Shown here in pieces: positions 3,922-38,730 of a stretch of DNA of 38,730 bases (positions within the stretch are counted from its first letter, which is position 1; each line of letters begins with the position of its first letter). Source of the DNA: Patescibacteria group bacterium. GTDB taxonomy: Bacteria; Patescibacteriota; Patescibacteriia; 2-12-FULL-60-25. A program made the position numbers and the translations under genes. The DNA lies in NCBI GenBank assembly GCA_029004215.1, contig JAQULH010000010.1, positions 1 through 38,730 on the forward strand, given 5' to 3'. The notes beneath the pieces were generated by a model, which was given only the letters and a program-made list of their open reading frames with translations, was not told the origin of the DNA and searched no databases.

Positions 3922-4494
3922 ATGTCAAAAATAATTTATCCATTCGCAGCAATACCAAACCAAGTGCTCAGAGGAGGTCATGGACCAGTAAACGTCGCGG
4001 TCCTGGCGGTTCTCATGAGCCACGGAAGGAGCACCGCGTCAGCGAAAACTCTTGCCGATGAGGTCGGGTGTGATCGAAAGAGCATTTTTAAGGCAATTGC
4101 TTACTGGGTGGATAAGGGACCGGCCTTCGGAATCTTCCTTCGAACAAGCGGTGGAAAGACGACTGGCAAAGCAACGATCATTGAAATTGAGATCACAACC
4201 TGTACCGAAAACGGTACGGGTGCAGTCGAGGGGTGTACCGAAAACGGAACAGGTGGTGTTCCAAAAACGGAACACCTACCTGTACCGAAAACGGTACACA
4301 AAGAAGAACCTATTAAGAAGAACCCAGAAGAAGACGGTAGGACGTGTGGAAATGTGGATAAAACCAAAAGACCCTTTATCGAGGGGGATCCTGCCTTCTT
4401 CGACGAGATACGAAAGGTGTGGCGTGTCAAAACGCATAACGGAGTTTGGCTGGATTACGTGGGCGACGTGAAAAAGAACCTTGTTTACAAATGA
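3922..4494 (+). CDS. Lambda-O-like replication initiator
   Basis: A 190-residue protein with a winged helix-turn-helix in the first half (ASAKTLADEVGCDRKSIFKA at 39-58, then a wing-like KTTGKATIIEIEI at 79-91), a linker, and a charged C-terminal part. The linker DNA (codons 94-126) carries four inverted-repeat iterons and is followed by an A-rich stretch. This is the plan of lambda O, where the N-terminal domain binds iterons in its own gene and the C-terminal domain recruits the helicase loader. GGAGG lies 14 bases before the ATG, inside a putative stem. Family membership rests on architecture rather than sequence identity. Confidence 0.7.
   Translation: MSKIIYPFAAIPNQVLRGGHGPVNVAVLAVLMSHGRSTASAKTLADEVGCDRKSIFKAIAYWVDKGPAFGIFLRTSGGKTTGKATIIEIEITTCTENGTGAVEGCTENGTGGVPKTEHLPVPKTVHKEEPIKKNPEEDGRTCGNVDKTKRPFIEGDPAFFDEIRKVWRVKTHNGVWLDYVGDVKKNLVYK
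4202..4297 (+). repeat. Origin iterons inside the initiator gene
   Basis: Four 16-bp inverted repeats with consensus GTWCCGAAAACGGWAC lie at 4202-4217, 4235-4250, 4258-4273 and 4282-4297. The first and fourth are perfect palindromes around AAAA; the second and third carry one or two changes (the third has A where the others have G in the left arm). Spacings are 33, 23 and 24 bases. Immediately right is a purine-rich, A-rich tract (about 4298-4340), like the unwinding region of the lambda origin. The repeats keep the reading frame open and encode CTENGT and VPKT motifs. Confidence 0.8.
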
Positions 4495-5030: not shown

Positions 5031-5492
5031 ATGACGCATCTTGAATTAATTGGCTATGGAATCACAAAACACGCACGCAAAAGCCACGGCGGGTGCGGGA
5101 CTTTCTTACTCGCACTTCTTATCCTCGCCCTCTGTGTCTTCGGGATTGGGTGCTTGGGGCAAGAATCAAGCGCGGCGAAAAATGGAATACGAGCAAAGCA
5201 AGTCATCGTCACGGCGTACACAAGCCGGATCGAAGAAACCGATGAGACTCCCTGCATATCATCCGATGGATCAGATGTTTGCGCTCTTGAAGCGGTTGGA
5301 GATCATAGTTGCGCAGCTAAATTCAATTTTAAAACAAAAATCTAAATACCGGGTTTCGGCCTCTGCACGGTCCGCGATAGGACGGCTTGGAAATATCGTG
5401 AGCGAATTGACCTGTATTTTGGAGGAAGAGAGCAAGTATGGCGCGCGAGAGAGTGGGGGAAACGGCAAATGACGGTTTGGGTCCTGGAATGA
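5031..5492 (+). pseudogene. Membrane-anchored 3D-domain (RlpA/MltA-like) protein, split by an in-frame TAA
   Basis: From ATG 5031 the frame encodes a basic N-terminus, a transmembrane segment (about residues 24-43) and the start of a 3D domain (VIVTAYTSRIEETDETPCIS, then CAAKFNFKTKI). It stops at TAA 5343-5345. The same frame then continues with the rest of the domain (IPGFGLCTVRDRTAWKYR, then RIDLYFGGREQVWRA and MTVWVLE) to TGA 5490-5492. 3D domains bind or cleave glycan in peptidoglycan. The continuity of family pattern across the stop shows that one codon has become TAA in what was a 153-residue protein. It may be a pseudogene, a sequencing error, or use stop readthrough. The cleavage role is inferred. 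Confidence 0.72.
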
Positions 5493-5506
5493 ACTTTAAA
5501 ACTGAA

Positions 5507-5667
5507 AGACGAATCCCGTTGGGAGGAGATGACATGAGGTTCGGGTAAGGGTGCAAGTACCATCCTCCCGAAGCAAAGAAGACAAGCGCCTCATGATCTC
5601 TCCCCACGGGGATTCGTCTCCCTATGCCGTAAGTAAACGCAGGGCACGCCCAGCGATGAAAACGGCA
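5507..5667 (+). ncRNA. Long-hairpin structured RNA just upstream of the tRNA
   Basis: Bases 5507-5539 pair with 5589-5619 to form about 29 base pairs with small bulges: GACGAAT/ATTCGTC, CCCGT/ACGGG, GGGA/TCCC, GAGAT/ATCTC and CATGAGG/CCTCATG. The tip folds again: TTCGGG (5540-5545) with CCCGAA (5567-5572), enclosing GGGTG with CATCC. A second hairpin follows, TGCCGT (5625-5630) with ACGGCA (5662-5667), enclosing CGC-GGG against CCC-GCG. The tRNA begins 3 bases later. No convincing ORF covers this stretch. The arm length suggests an RNase III substrate or part of a larger RNA that includes the tRNA. Confidence 0.6.
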
Positions 5668-5670
5668 CGG

Positions 5671-5745
5671 TTCGGGGTGGAGCAGCGGCAGCTCGTCCGG
5701 CTCATAACCGGAAGGTCGCCAGTTCGAATCTGGCCCCCGAAACCA
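5671..5745 (+). tRNA. tRNA with CAU anticodon, initiator-like body
   Basis: A complete cloverleaf of 75 bases with encoded CCA. Acceptor 5671-5677 pairs with 5735-5741; D stem 5680-5683 with 5691-5694 and a short 7-base loop; anticodon stem 5696-5700 with 5708-5712; anticodon CAT at 5703-5705; T stem 5718-5722 with 5730-5734 around TTCGAAT. The body resembles bacterial initiator tRNA, including the A11-T24 pair and the CTCATAA loop context. It departs from the initiator rules in having a paired T1-A72 end and C29-G41 in place of G29-C41. It could serve as Met (initiator or elongator) or, if modified by TilS, as Ile2. Confidence 0.93.
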
Positions 5746-5771
5746 TACGAGAACAAAGCCGAAAGGTTGCG

Positions 5772-5955
5772 TTTGTGAGGAATGGATTTTCTATCACAAA
5801 GCATTATCCACGTCGGCTCTCGCCGTGAGGAAGTTCACCAAGAGGTGAACAGAGCAATAGCTTGGGCTTGTCCAATGCAAGTACCAAGTGAAGCCGAATA
5901 GGTGGGTCATTGTTAAGCCACCTGTTTCCTCACGGCGGGATATCCCGCGAAATAA
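5772..5955 (+). ncRNA. Four-way-junction structured RNA with possible pseudoknot and 3' switch hairpin
   Basis: A 12-bp perfect stem, CGCCGTGAGGAA (5821-5832) with TTCCTCACGGCG (5926-5937), encloses three hairpins: GTTCACC/GGTGAAC (5833-5850), CTTGGGCTTG against CAAGT-A-CCAAG (5861-5888), and AGGTGG/CCACCT (5900-5923). TCGGCT (5813-5818) can pair with AGCCGA (5892-5897) as a pseudoknot. The 3' strand of the closing stem overlaps the palindrome GCGGGATATCCCGC (5936-5949), so two exclusive folds are possible. A separate hairpin lies at 5772-5800 (TTTGTGA/TCACAAA). It precedes the ATG at 5981. It may be a free RNA or a leader; no Rfam family was recognised by eye. Confidence 0.65.
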
Positions 5956-5980
5956 AAATTAATTCATTTTCATTCACACT

Positions 5981-6154
5981 ATGTTTTTTGGAGGAGTAAT
6001 CCGTGCGAGGGTCGAGGAAAAGATAAATCAGAAAATTAAGGAAGCCGAGGTTGAGTACGAGGACGAATGCGTCCGTCTCGAGCAACAACTCGAAATGGAC
6101 AAGCAGGGTATCGAGGACCGGATCGTGAACGGATTGATCTCAAAAATCCTTTGA
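5981..6154 (+). CDS. Small charged helical protein (57 aa)
   Basis: ATG at 5981 encodes 57 residues (MFFGGVIRAR, then VEEKINQKIKEAEVEYEDEC and a similar acidic-basic stretch ending ISKIL). The heptad-like spacing of hydrophobic residues predicts a coiled coil. The start has no Shine-Dalgarno sequence but a clean AT-rich leader (AATTAATTCATTTTC) directly after the structured RNA, which may regulate it. The family is not recognised. The protein-like composition argues that it is real even though it is enclosed by noncoding structured DNA. Confidence 0.6.
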   Translation: MFFGGVIRARVEEKINQKIKEAEVEYEDECVRLEQQLEMDKQGIEDRIVNGLISKIL

Positions 6155-6183
6155 TTACGGGCGATGACGACTTGTTCGTCTCT

Positions 6184-6255
6184 CGCCGCGAGCAGAGCGT
6201 CGTTGGCAAAGATCTACCAAAGGACACTGCTCACGGCGGGAATAACCGCGATAAA
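6184..6255 (+). promoter_or_regulatory. Second copy of the structured leader, related to 5813-5955
   Basis: CGCCGCGAGCAG (6184-6195) pairs with CTGCTCACGGCG (6227-6238), 11 of 12 positions. This echoes the closing stem at 5821, but with GCAG/CTGC where the first has GGAA/TTCC, so pairing is kept while sequence changes. The inner arm is GTC-TTGG against CCAA-GAC (6199-6225). The 3' flank again reads GGCGGGA, a few bases, then CCGCGA and an A/T-rich stretch, and GCGG/CCGC can form the alternative hairpin. It precedes the gene starting at 6267. Confidence 0.6.
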
Positions 6256-6266
6256 TTTTTCTCAAT

Positions 6267-6479
6267 ATGGGAGAAGACAAGTGCACGACCACGTGTGGGC
6301 CGGCTGAGATAGCGCCGGCGAGACGCAAGACACAGAGCGTCCGCATCCAAATGGTCGAAAACGGATTTTTAATTCATCGGGAAGGCAGCCAATACGGCAC
6401 TTTGATAGCAGGGGATCTGGATGAAGCAATGCGCTTGACCCGCCTGCAATTCCAAGAAGTAGAACCGGCTCAAGAATAA
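6267..6479 (+). CDS. Unknown small protein (70 aa)
   Basis: ATG at 6267, 12 bases past the structured leader, encodes 70 residues with two cysteines near the start (CTTTC) and then a compact stretch of alternating strands and a helix (VRIQMVENGFLIHREGSQYG, LDEAMRLTRLQFQEVE). That pattern suits a small alpha-beta domain. There is no Shine-Dalgarno sequence; the leader is AT-rich (ATAAATTTTTCTCAAT). The family is not recognised. Being the second gene behind a copy of the same RNA element, it may be co-regulated with the 57-aa protein. Confidence 0.6.
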   Translation: MGEDKCTTTCGPAEIAPARRKTQSVRIQMVENGFLIHREGSQYGTLIAGDLDEAMRLTRLQFQEVEPAQE

Positions 6480-6484
6480 AACAC

Positions 6485-6768
6485 GCGATCCCTTGGGGGT
6501 CGCACCCGCGAGACACCGCAACGTGGAGATCGGTCACAAACGAGGCCCTAGGTGACCTTAGCCTCTCTCCCCATAGTCGTTGCCTCTCGTGTGCGGCTCG
6601 TAAGAGCACGCTCGTCCCCGCCGAAAAATGCGTGGATGGAAAAGCCAAACTGATTACCGAAAACCTAGCCGTGTGTGTGAGTAGGATCAGTCCGCCGGCC
6701 ACGGAAAAGCCGAGCGGTGTATTGCGGGGAGGATGGAGGTACAAACTCGCATCCTCCCCGTGCAAAAA
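6485..6768 (+). ncRNA. Cluster of hairpins in a 310-base gene-free stretch
   Basis: No plausible gene lies between 6480 and 6790 on either strand. Structure is dense: GCGA-CCC/GGG-TCGC (6485-6503); GCAACG/CGTTGC (6518-6523 with 6578-6583) enclosing GGTCAC/GTGACC (6532-6557); GCTC-GTAA-GAGC (6596-6607) with a GNRA-type loop; CTGAT-CCTA/TAGG-ATCAG (6650-6690); CCGCCGGC/GCCG-A-GCGG (6692-6717); and a 14-pair hairpin CGGGGAGGATG-GAG/CTC-CATCCTCCCCG (6725-6760). No T tract follows the last hairpin, so it is not a normal terminator. A large noncoding RNA is the best reading; it could be contiguous with the RNA elements upstream. Confidence 0.5.
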
Positions 6769-6790
6769 ACTTTAATTCCTCTGAACAATT

Positions 6791-6949
6791 ATGAGCACTT
6801 TTTCAAAGGGTCAATCCAAGGACTACATCAAAAAGCGGAACGTCAAAAACAACAATTACCGCGATGACAATCCTTGGAAGCATACGCGACTTTACGATGG
6901 CGGGGGAGTTCTGCCGAAAAGCCGCAAATACAAGGAGAAAAAAGTATGA
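6791..6949 (+). CDS. Unknown small basic protein (52 aa)
   Basis: ATG at 6791 gives 52 residues, very rich in K, R and N (MSTFSKGQSKDYIKKRNVKN, then NPWKHTRLYDGGG), with no hydrophobic core and likely disordered. It has no Shine-Dalgarno sequence; the leader is AT-rich after the hairpin at 6725. Its stop overlaps the next start by four bases (ATGA), so the two are translated together. A nucleic-acid-binding or structural accessory role is possible but not supported by a recognised family. Confidence 0.55.
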   Translation: MSTFSKGQSKDYIKKRNVKNNNYRDDNPWKHTRLYDGGGVLPKSRKYKEKKV

Positions 6950-7117: not shown

Positions 7118-7339
7118 ATGAAAAAACCATGGAAGGAGCGGCACGTGTACGGCTTCACGTGCGCCAAGTGTGGACATCGCCGGCAATCGTTCCGGCGCGC
7201 TCGGGCGCGCAAGGAAGTTTGCCGACTGTGCCGGCCGCACAAGGCGGTGCCGGATAACCAAATGAGCATGTTTCAGGATCAGGATACGGAGATTGCGGAA
7301 ACGCTGAAAGATGGGTGCAAGCTTGAATACGTAAAATAA
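7118..7339 (+). CDS. Zinc-ribbon protein (73 aa)
   Basis: ATG at 7118, directly after the previous stop. It has a four-cysteine ribbon, CAKC and CRLC (residues about 15-40), embedded in an arginine-rich segment (RRQSFRRARARKEV) that should bind nucleic acid, then an acidic tail (DQDTEIAETLKDG). It lies in a run of tightly packed genes ahead of the RusA-like resolvase. Zinc ribbons with basic loops in this position often act on DNA or RNA polymerase; the precise role is not recognised. Confidence 0.65.
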   Translation: MKKPWKERHVYGFTCAKCGHRRQSFRRARARKEVCRLCRPHKAVPDNQMSMFQDQDTEIAETLKDGCKLEYVK

Positions 7340-8756: not shown

Positions 8757-8915
8757 ATGGCTCTTAATCAAAAAGACTTGCGCATTAAAAAACTTTGGGA
8801 GAAGGGCATCCGTTCTATCGGCGAGATCGCGCGCAAGGTCGGGTATGGCGGGGCCATGGAGGAGGGAGTACGTCGGGTCGAGGAGGGACTAAAAAGGTTG
8901 GGAATTAAGAAATAA
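8757..8915 (+). CDS. Small helix-turn-helix protein (52 aa)
   Basis: ATG at 8757, one base after the terminase small-subunit stop. The 52 residues are nearly all one DNA-binding fold: MALNQKDLRIKKLWEKGIRS, then IGEIARKVGYGG, then a basic helix. This resembles Sigma-70-region-4 or GcrA-type helix-turn-helix motifs (an opening helix, IGEIARKVG as the turn). It may regulate late genes or assist terminase at the packaging site. The DNA-binding fold is fairly clear; the target is unknown. Confidence 0.6.
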   Translation: MALNQKDLRIKKLWEKGIRSIGEIARKVGYGGAMEEGVRRVEEGLKRLGIKK

Positions 8916-9110: not shown

Positions 9111-9392
9111 ATGAAACCATCAACAGAGATTTTAAAGGCTATAGGTGTACGCCTAAGCAACGATTACGAGAAGGTCTTATCTGATTTTCCAATTGGCAGG
9201 CCAGTTGTCATGAATGGGATTAACGCCGTGGTCATTGCCCATCAAGAACAAGATATCTTCGGGTCCAAGTGTCTGTTTGTCACGATCCGCGCCGTGAATG
9301 GAGACGGCATGACAATCGACCCGTATTTCTGGGATTTGACCTATGCAGGCGAACCTTCGCAAGCTCAAAGAGGAAAAGGCAAGAAGGCTTAG
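9111..9392 (+). CDS. Unknown protein overlapping the terminase start (93 aa)
   Basis: ATG at 9111 follows a typical AT-rich leader of this phage (AATTAATTTATTTTTT). The 93 residues form a small beta-rich domain (PVVMNGINAVVIAHQEQD, CLFVTIRAVNGDG) with a basic glycine-lysine end. The last 50 bases overlap the large terminase in another frame. No family recognised. Overlap with terL suggests coupled translation. Confidence 0.55.
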   Translation: MKPSTEILKAIGVRLSNDYEKVLSDFPIGRPVVMNGINAVVIAHQEQDIFGSKCLFVTIRAVNGDGMTIDPYFWDLTYAGEPSQAQRGKGKKA

Positions 9393-13118: not shown

Positions 13119-13209
13119 TCGAACTTGCCAAGGTGGTAGCCCGTTTCGGGCCGCCGCGATGATTTGAATACTCACAATCATTTTCTCAATATCTTACTGG
13201 CAGGTTCGA
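13119..13209 (+). promoter_or_regulatory. Three-way-junction RNA element ahead of the capsid operon
   Basis: TCGAACTTGCCA (13119-13130) pairs with TGGCAGGTTCGA (13198-13209) in 12 pairs with one G-U. Inside are GGTG-GCCCG/CGGGC-CGCC (13132-13155) and ATGATT/AATCAT (13159-13181). A strong terminator follows 18 bases later. An aptamer-like junction then a terminator ahead of a gene block is the layout of a riboswitch or attenuator. It may set how much transcription passes from the portal unit into scaffold and capsid genes. The ligand, if any, is unknown. Confidence 0.55.
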
Positions 13210-13227
13210 TGTTGAGAACGCGGCCTA

Positions 13228-13257
13228 AAAGGGACTATCACACGATAGTCCCTTTTT
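13228..13257 (+). terminator. Strong intrinsic terminator before the scaffold gene
   Basis: AAAGGGACTATC pairs with GATAGTCCCTTT (12 perfect pairs, ACAC loop) and runs into TT. A second small hairpin, CGTATC-GCAA-GATACG with a GNRA loop, follows at 13259-13274. Transcription of the scaffold-capsid block must read through this or begin after it; the 64 bases from 13275 to the ATG show no consensus promoter. Confidence 0.85.
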
Positions 13258-13338
13258 CCGTATCGCAAGATACGAGATTACCCACGAACACAGGTTTTTC
13301 GCCATTTTCCTGCAAGTAGTGCGTACAAAAATTAATTT

Positions 13339-14094
13339 ATGGCAGATGAGAACAAACCGGAAGGCGGCTCGCAACAGCAGCCAACCGAGGGCGCCGGATC
13401 AGGCCAACAACCAACTGATCCTCAAGGCGGCAACAATGGGCAGCAGCCTGATAAGAAGCCAGATGCGGGAGGCCAACAGCAGCCAGCAGAAGGCGCACAA
13501 GACCCAAATAAAGCGCAAGAAGATGAGCCTAAGGTCCGCAAGACCCAAAAGGATTACATCATCGAGCGCATACAACGTCAGCGCGATAAAGCCCGGAAAG
13601 ATGCCGCGAATCCCGACGGTGGCAAAAAACCAACCGGCGACGATGGCAATCAGGGTGGAAGCGATGACGATATCGATCCCGAGGATGAAGCAAAAATCTC
13701 CAAGGTGCTCGATAAAAGACTTGGTCCCGTGATGGATGAACTGGATGCCGAAAGGCAGCAGGCCGCAGAGCAGCAAGAAGAAGCTGAACTGCAAACCTTC
13801 CTCACGGAATGTCCCCAGTTCAAGCCTTACGAGGCCAAGATCCGCAAGTGGGCGAAGCATGAATCGCGCAAAAATCTGCCTTTACTCTCTATCGCTTATG
13901 AAATAGCCGGACCCGATCTCGAAAGAATCGGAGCCGAAAGAGAAAGGAAGGCCGCGCAAGATGCCGCCGCTTCGGCGACTGGTGGCGGATCCACCAGAAC
14001 CGAATCTCCCAAGAAGCCAATTCCAGAGATGACTAAGGAAGAATTTAGGGATCTCGAGGAAAAAGCCAGGCGGGGAGAAATCGTGATCAGATAA
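13339..14094 (+). CDS. Probable capsid scaffolding protein
   Basis: A 251-residue acidic, glutamine- and glycine-rich protein immediately before the major capsid gene, the standard place for a scaffold. The N-terminal 100 residues are low complexity (EGGSQQQPTEGAGSGQQ and similar). The middle is strongly helical and charged (LDKRLGPVMDELDAERQQAA, EQQEEAELQTFL), followed by a small folded segment (CPQFKPYEAKIRKWAK) and a basic C-terminal helix (EEFRDLEEKARRGEIVI) that could bind the capsid protein. Scaffolds guide procapsid assembly and leave before DNA packaging. The start follows AAAAATTAATTT with no Shine-Dalgarno sequence. Confidence 0.75.
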   Translation: MADENKPEGGSQQQPTEGAGSGQQPTDPQGGNNGQQPDKKPDAGGQQQPAEGAQDPNKAQEDEPKVRKTQKDYIIERIQRQRDKARKDAANPDGGKKPTGDDGNQGGSDDDIDPEDEAKISKVLDKRLGPVMDELDAERQQAAEQQEEAELQTFLTECPQFKPYEAKIRKWAKHESRKNLPLLSIAYEIAGPDLERIGAERERKAAQDAAASATGGGSTRTESPKKPIPEMTKEEFRDLEEKARRGEIVIR

Positions 14095-38562: not shown

Positions 38563-38730
38563 ATGAAAAAAGCTCAAAAAATCCCCGTGGTACGCCATAG
38601 AAGTTTAAGAAGTGCCATGGGAAGTAGGAGTATGAATGGATCGATCCAAAATCAAAAAGAATTAATTGAAACCGTAAGGTATATTGTTTCTGAAACGATA
38701 AAGATGGCTCAGAAGATAGTCGGTAAGAGT
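38563..38730 (+). CDS. ORF crossing attR into host DNA (partial)
   Basis: ATG at 38563 in phage DNA reads MKKAQKIPVVRHRSLRSAMG, crosses the attR core, and continues in frame with the host-side sequence, open at the right edge. The native host start is probably ATG 38632, two bases behind GGAG at 38627-38630, giving MNGSIQNQKELIETVRYIVS and onward. In the unintegrated phage the same start would give a 25-residue peptide ending at TAG on the left side of attP. The host gene is not recognisable from 33 codons. Confidence 0.5.
   Translation, partial: MKKAQKIPVVRHRSLRSAMGSRSMNGSIQNQKELIETVRYIVSETIKMAQKIVGKS
38601..38636 (+). other. attR, right attachment site
   Basis: Second copy of the secA tail: codons K-F-K-K-C-H-G-K then TAG at 38601-38627, preceded in frame by a TAG, so it is not part of a gene here. 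The shared core AAGTGCCA is at 38610-38617. Bases right of the core should be the original host end of secA. Confidence 0.85.

Follow-up and report, generated by a model that had tools for sequence, protein, structure and literature searches.

The attC sites of integrons carry core boxes with the sequences GTTRRRY and RYYYAAC. Among phage RNAs, GOLLD and ROOL are encoded in phages or prophages near tRNA genes (PMC12286853), and the put RNAs, which are about 70 nt long and consist of two stem-loops, lie in early phage operons (PMC9378689). We compared these systems with a locus in a 38,730-nt stretch of DNA, hereafter the window, which holds two related elements, C and D. As with GOLLD and ROOL, structured RNA-like sequence in a prophage adjoins a tRNA gene; in contrast, GOLLD and ROOL are each one conserved RNA of many hundred nucleotides, made as a long, abundant transcript and assembling into a multimeric cage, whereas the window has short modules before genes, no Rfam match, and unstructured joining stretches. 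Like attenuators and riboswitch-like 5' leaders, C and D lie just before a gene and, as predicted, could adopt two exclusive folds from four complementary segments, the last of which is near the start codon. Unlike such leaders, they conserve a stem base and not a ligand-binding core, their apex is free, and elements of this type occur in several copies per phage operon. With attC sites they share a location between small ORFs and an imperfect stem whose ends are conserved while its terminal structure varies, but they carry an extra hairpin (P0) and a tail, and the ends read CTCTCGC...GCGGGA in all members, with no core boxes on inspection. With the HK022 put RNA, compared by description and not by sequence, they share two abutting stem-loops in what would be phage transcripts, but they are larger, have a variable apex, and are present in several copies.

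The window is the entire contig C10 of a 1.2-Mb genome (listed relatives, approximately 0.6-1.6 Mb), so that its host is probably Patescibacteria-like, and looks like an integrated prophage, on the basis of genes for RecT, an FtsK-like protein, a terminase, and an integrase, the last being an ordinary phage tyrosine recombinase. A SecA-like C-terminus is encoded at 3-146, and an imperfect 37-bp direct repeat (119-155 versus 38600-38636, 28/37 identical) copies the end of this frame (KFKKCHGK-stop); the two copies are likely the attachment sites of the prophage. A perfect 19-bp inverted repeat (278-296/449-467, spacing 152 nt) was also present, with no strong fold in the tested stretch 270-419.

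Table 1. Structured elements, tRNA gene, and neighbouring small ORFs of the window, with related elements in L055 and leaders in G006:C12
Feature	Coordinates	Strand	Basis
Element A, long branched hairpin, outer stem AGACGAATCCC/GGGATTCGTCT	5507..5619	+	inverted repeat I1, fold z
Hairpin B, between A and tRNA	5625..5667	+	fold z, weak
tRNA-Met (CAT), initiator-type body, U1-A72, CCA encoded	5671..5745	+	ARAGORN; Rfam tRNA 64.4 bits
P0 of C, stem AGCCGA/TCGGCT, inner hairpin	5757..5818	+	52/1000 shuffles with equally long stem there
Element C, P1 TCTCGCCGTGAGGAA/TTCCTCACGGCGGGA closing four-way junction	5818..5940	+	fold, family, covariation
Tail of C, GCGGGATATCCCGC, hairpin competing with P1 base	5935..5948	+	alternative-fold analysis
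Small ORF, 57 aa, 3' of C	5981..6154	+	ORF list
P0 of D, GACGA/TCGTC, conserved with D' of L055	6166..6180	+	sequence comparison
Element D, P1 TCTCGCCGCGAGCAG/CTGCTCACGGCGGGA, short apex	6181..6241	+	fold; family model R2
Tail of D, GCGGGAATAACCGC, competing hairpin	6236..6249	+	alternative-fold analysis
Small ORF, 70 aa, 3' of D	6267..6479	+	ORF list
Block F, hairpin cluster	6505..6600	+	at chance level
Hairpin E, arms GCGGGGAGGATG/CATCCTCCCCGTGC, before ORF 6791-6949	6724..6761	+	fold z
Small ORF 3' of E	6791-6949		
C'	L055 8446-8529		C/D build
D'	L055 8847-8965		C/D build
H'	L055 9615-9733		C/D build
Two paralogous leaders	G006:C12 19262-19360, 20280-20376	-	= L014 11263-11360, 12281-12377

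Fold strength was expressed as a z-score against dinucleotide shuffles (200 per element; 100 for 5480-5980). The structured region was real but uneven, in that A, C, D, and E beat the shuffles by a wide margin whereas B and F did not clearly do so (Table 1). An earlier note on this DNA had placed a long branched hairpin at the start of the locus, and this was borne out as element A (-59 kcal/mol, z -6.2, equalled by 0/200 shuffles), for which no homologue was found. Its second hairpin is present as B but weak (z -1.8, 10/200 shuffles as good) and also had no homologue; the tRNA begins three bases further on, as the note had said. The proposed four-way junction was recovered as element C (z -7.5, 0/200 shuffles). 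The supposed related second junction, element D (z -4.0, 1/200 shuffles), does share the stem base of C but folds as one long hairpin and not as a four-way junction. Hairpin E, which lies outside the C/D family, was strong (z -7.4, 0/200 shuffles), whereas the further hairpin cluster, block F, tested as 6480-6600, gave z -0.8 (51/200 shuffles as good) and 6480-6725 overall gave z -1.5 (16/200). The locus is indeed among the most structured parts of the window, but it is not alone: in a fold scan of the + strand, C ranked first and 4201-4340 and 13141-13280 were nearly equal. The former, inside ORF 3922-4494, has z -9.6 and repeated near-palindromes (ACCGAAAACGG-like); at the latter, a branched hairpin (13120-13206) is followed by a perfect terminator-like stem (13227-13256) upstream of a gene at 13339. 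An 11-mer, TGCAAGTACCA, is common to A and C and was taken as weak evidence.

The predicted tRNA is, by its body, an initiator tRNA. Over most of its length, this body matches tRNAs from many family and class genomes at 75-86% identity. The acceptor stems of those tRNAs, where the sequence was fully shown, read CGCGGGG/CCCCGCA with C1 opposite A72; the window tRNA has U1-A72 and U2-A71. The C1.A72 mismatch is a main identity element of bacterial initiators, and because U1-A72 replaces it here, the window tRNA may be altered in initiation.

Searches of Rfam with cmscan at the gathering score returned only the tRNA at the locus. At E 5, none of GOLLD, ROOL, OLE, or HEARO was returned, in agreement with the earlier note, which had recognised no GOLLD- or ROOL-type sequence, and one extra sub-threshold match lay over the tRNA. 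At the same cut-off, Rfam models of self-cleaving ribozymes matched neither 5400-6900 nor the relative L055 described below, and under strict and loose thresholds alike Rfam as a whole gave only tRNAs and weak chance matches. Among the matches listed, BLAST of the locus against phages found the tRNA only, and family searches with the 57-aa and 70-aa ORFs behind C and D gave no match.

Viral contigs were scanned with the stem arms of C and D, which yielded eleven stretches, one of them from a true relative, IMGVR_UViG_3300007363_000081 (L049, re-fetched as L055). This phage encodes a 52-aa protein that is 84% identical to that of window 8757-8912 and a zinc-ribbon-like protein that is 31% identical to that of window 7118-7336. 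Window ORF 5031-5345 shares about 50% identity with a portion of an L055 protein of 175 aa and stops earlier, inside the overlapping ORF 5050-5472. BLAST of the L055 region gave one 30-bp chance match. C and D have the stem-base strands TCTCGCCGYGAG and CTCACGGCGGGA in common and, with C', D', and H' of L055, make up a small predicted RNA family that Rfam lacks, five members from two phages in all. Each member has an invariant stem base, CUCGC/GCGGG, which includes one U-G wobble, and a 5' hairpin that abuts the stem. The apex is structured but variable, at approximately 31 to 93 nt, and ranges from a single hairpin to several branches. P0 is a perfect hairpin 0-3 nt 5' of the CTCGC motif in 5/5 members, and an equally long stem was found by chance in 2-59/1000 shuffles across them; since D and D' are homologous in this upstream hairpin (23/27 identical), their P0 hairpins are not independent. 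Element D scored 44.7 bits with family model R2, whose own alignment includes D.

The earlier note had proposed a check for covariation, and C and D do covary with their copies in L055. In the alignment of P1 from the five members, made with the apex cut out and laid out on the proposed stem, and with three of the five members from one contig, 7/15 pairs were altered on both sides, which 0/500 shuffles reached. In the same alignment, 90.7% of cells pair, as against 39-52% in slid versions. When R2 was run on 380 class genomes, and in wide pattern scans, all matches that were checked looked like chance and had neither the stem nor its context; one Patescibacteria match (L154) was rejected, as it lies inside a 464-aa ORF. 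Because R2 in default mode misses the large-apex members (C, D', and H') and the last genome scan covered only C- and D'-like apex lengths, the absence of C/D elements elsewhere is not proved. The novelty is confined to a family of RNA, or possibly DNA, elements that is absent from Rfam and of which five members are known, from two phages.

In C, D, D', and H', 13-32 nt separate the end of the element from the ATG of a small same-strand ORF, and in each the CCGC that follows GCGGGA can form a small hairpin with the GCGG of the stem; C' has neither a gene behind it nor a CCGC tail. In C, D, and D', the 5' stem strand has an alternative pairing partner in upstream sequence. Many start codons of this phage have no Shine-Dalgarno site and an A/T-rich context, so the lack of such a site before the ORFs behind C/D-type elements carries little information. 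We calculated the gap between the best fold and the best fold with the stem base penalised, and used 300 shuffles of both flanks as the control. The gap was 0.0 kcal/mol for C (0/300 flank shuffles as small), 1.5 for D (11/300), and 5.3 for D' (13/300). It was 5.6 kcal/mol for H' (91/300, not unusual) and 4.9 kcal/mol for C' (180/300). Covariation of the tail hairpin was looked for across the members and none was seen. These calculated gaps suggest, without proving, an attenuator-like switch in the members with a gene behind them. The structure of C and D, their family, the covariation of P1, the position before genes, and the competing folds all come directly from sequence and calculation.

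The reading that we tentatively adopt, with somewhat less than even confidence, is that the locus comprises separate structured elements in the messages of a prophage operon together with a tRNA gene, with C and D as leaders in cis and not as parts of a giant RNA. Each leader would have a fixed build of P0, abutting P1 with its invariant base, variable apex, and CCGC tail shortly before the start codon, and would adopt either a closed P1 or an extended P0 plus a tail hairpin beside the start region, as in an attenuator. Most likely, the element would govern how well the downstream gene is translated or how stable its message is, with control exerted either by the choice of fold or by a factor that recognises the invariant base. 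Transcription of the elements, their action in cis, and a trigger of the fold switch are what we infer. Two features expected of a leader in cis are present, namely compensatory changes (the 7/15 P1 pairs above) and a same-strand ORF downstream (4/5 members). This reading has to contend with the small number of members, the lack of a gene behind C', the tail that does not covary, and the ordinary gap of H'; in addition, A.C oppositions and the better opposite-strand folding of some members would be unexpected for a purely RNA function.

A congeneric genome supplied a parallel in its prophage (G006:C12), whose terminase is 65% identical to that of the window. A fold scan there revealed two copies of another RNA, a three-way junction with conserved GCAACC...GGTTG..GCA, in which 33/33 pairs are kept in both copies and 13 are altered on both sides. 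These leaders end 0-1 nt before the ATG of genes for a DnaB-like helicase and a DnaD-like helicase loader, respectively. Their sequence is unlike C/D and had no match in Rfam; model R1, built from them, was run on 41 family genomes and 13 sources and recovered nothing beyond the two source copies, and the R1 core had no exact match in viral contigs. A short frame, M[PL]KTT[IN]L[IV], lies upstream of both. The parallel shows that such prophages place predicted structured RNAs as leaders, and leaders in cis best fit the position, the covariation, and this parallel taken together.

An unlikely but substantial alternative is that the tRNA and the long stems punctuate a polycistronic phage transcript and divide it into separate stable messages. 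RNase P and tRNA 3' enzymes would cut at the tRNA, while the stems would either be cleaved by a double-strand RNase such as RNase III or block decay. In agreement with this, the tRNA and the elements lie in one orientation, interspersed with small ORFs. L055 also has, between small ORFs and between D' and H', a tRNA-like sequence (9226-9342, 39.4 bits) with intact acceptor stem, D arm, and T arm, in which the anticodon loop is replaced by an extended hairpin, formed by an insert of about 45-50 nt; because of this replacement it hardly decodes. A tRNA or tRNA-like sequence co-occurs with C/D elements in both phages. The terminase relatives (36-65% identical; L002-L010, G006, and G093) had neither a tRNA nor a C/D element in the searched sequence, so the two appear to go together, on few cases. 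However, an invariant CUCGC/GCGGG base, a P0, and a tail would all be superfluous in processing sites.

It is improbable, though a serious rival, that the elements act in DNA as recombination sites folded from single strands, like integron attC, with the small ORFs as exchangeable cassettes. The stems hold both A.C and G.U (G.T) oppositions, the opposite strand gives the better fold for D, C', and H', and the family has no consistent strand preference; this is what makes the rival serious. The conserved ends with a wholly variable apex point the same way, as do the small ORFs, which are not the same in the window and in L055, and the array, which is placed elsewhere among the conserved genes in L055. 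On the other hand, the ends lack attC core boxes, no integron-type integrase was noticed, no empty or swapped site was found, and the P0 and tail before start codons would be left unexplained.

The earlier note had proposed one ornate non-coding RNA that includes the tRNA, and this did not hold up well; we consider it just as improbable. The stretch 5480-5980 has the tRNA as its sole assigned gene and folds strongly (z -7.7, 0/100 shuffles), and some GOLLD RNAs adjoin a Met-tRNA or hold tRNAs (PMC12286853). However, in L055 the C/D-type units are separate modules in a gene order that differs from that of the window, and the tRNA-like sequence is placed differently relative to them. The terminase relatives have neither a tRNA nor such modules in the searched sequence. 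The joining sequence is unstructured both at 6480-6725 and in L055 8530-8845, no homologue was found for A or B, and none of the known giant RNAs matches; a single ornate RNA is therefore not favoured. The L055 8530-8845 non-coding block was itself tried as a large RNA and rejected because it folds no better than shuffles. Antitermination elements that bind RNA polymerase, like the HK022 put RNA, would account for P0 and P1 as two abutting stem-loops but not for several copies per operon, a large variable apex, and tails near start codons, and are very improbable.

Returning to leaders in cis, a bolder version, which we regard as quite unlikely, is that C and D represent a new modular class of two-state RNAs in phages of small-genome bacteria. 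In such a class, a fixed socket (P0, stem base, and tail) would carry an exchangeable apex before small genes, would be recognised by a single factor from the phage or the host, and would be linked to a transcript-cutting tRNA or a non-decoding tRNA-like sequence. Phages of hosts with tiny genomes, probably Patescibacteria, are known mostly from metagenomes, and their gene control is largely untested. Repeated putative leaders outside Rfam, in which the base is fixed and the apex free, offer a concrete handle on this control. The tRNA-like sequence without an anticodon loop bears on why phages carry tRNAs, and the C/D elements together with the unrelated leader family of G006 suggest that these phages may commonly use structured leaders.
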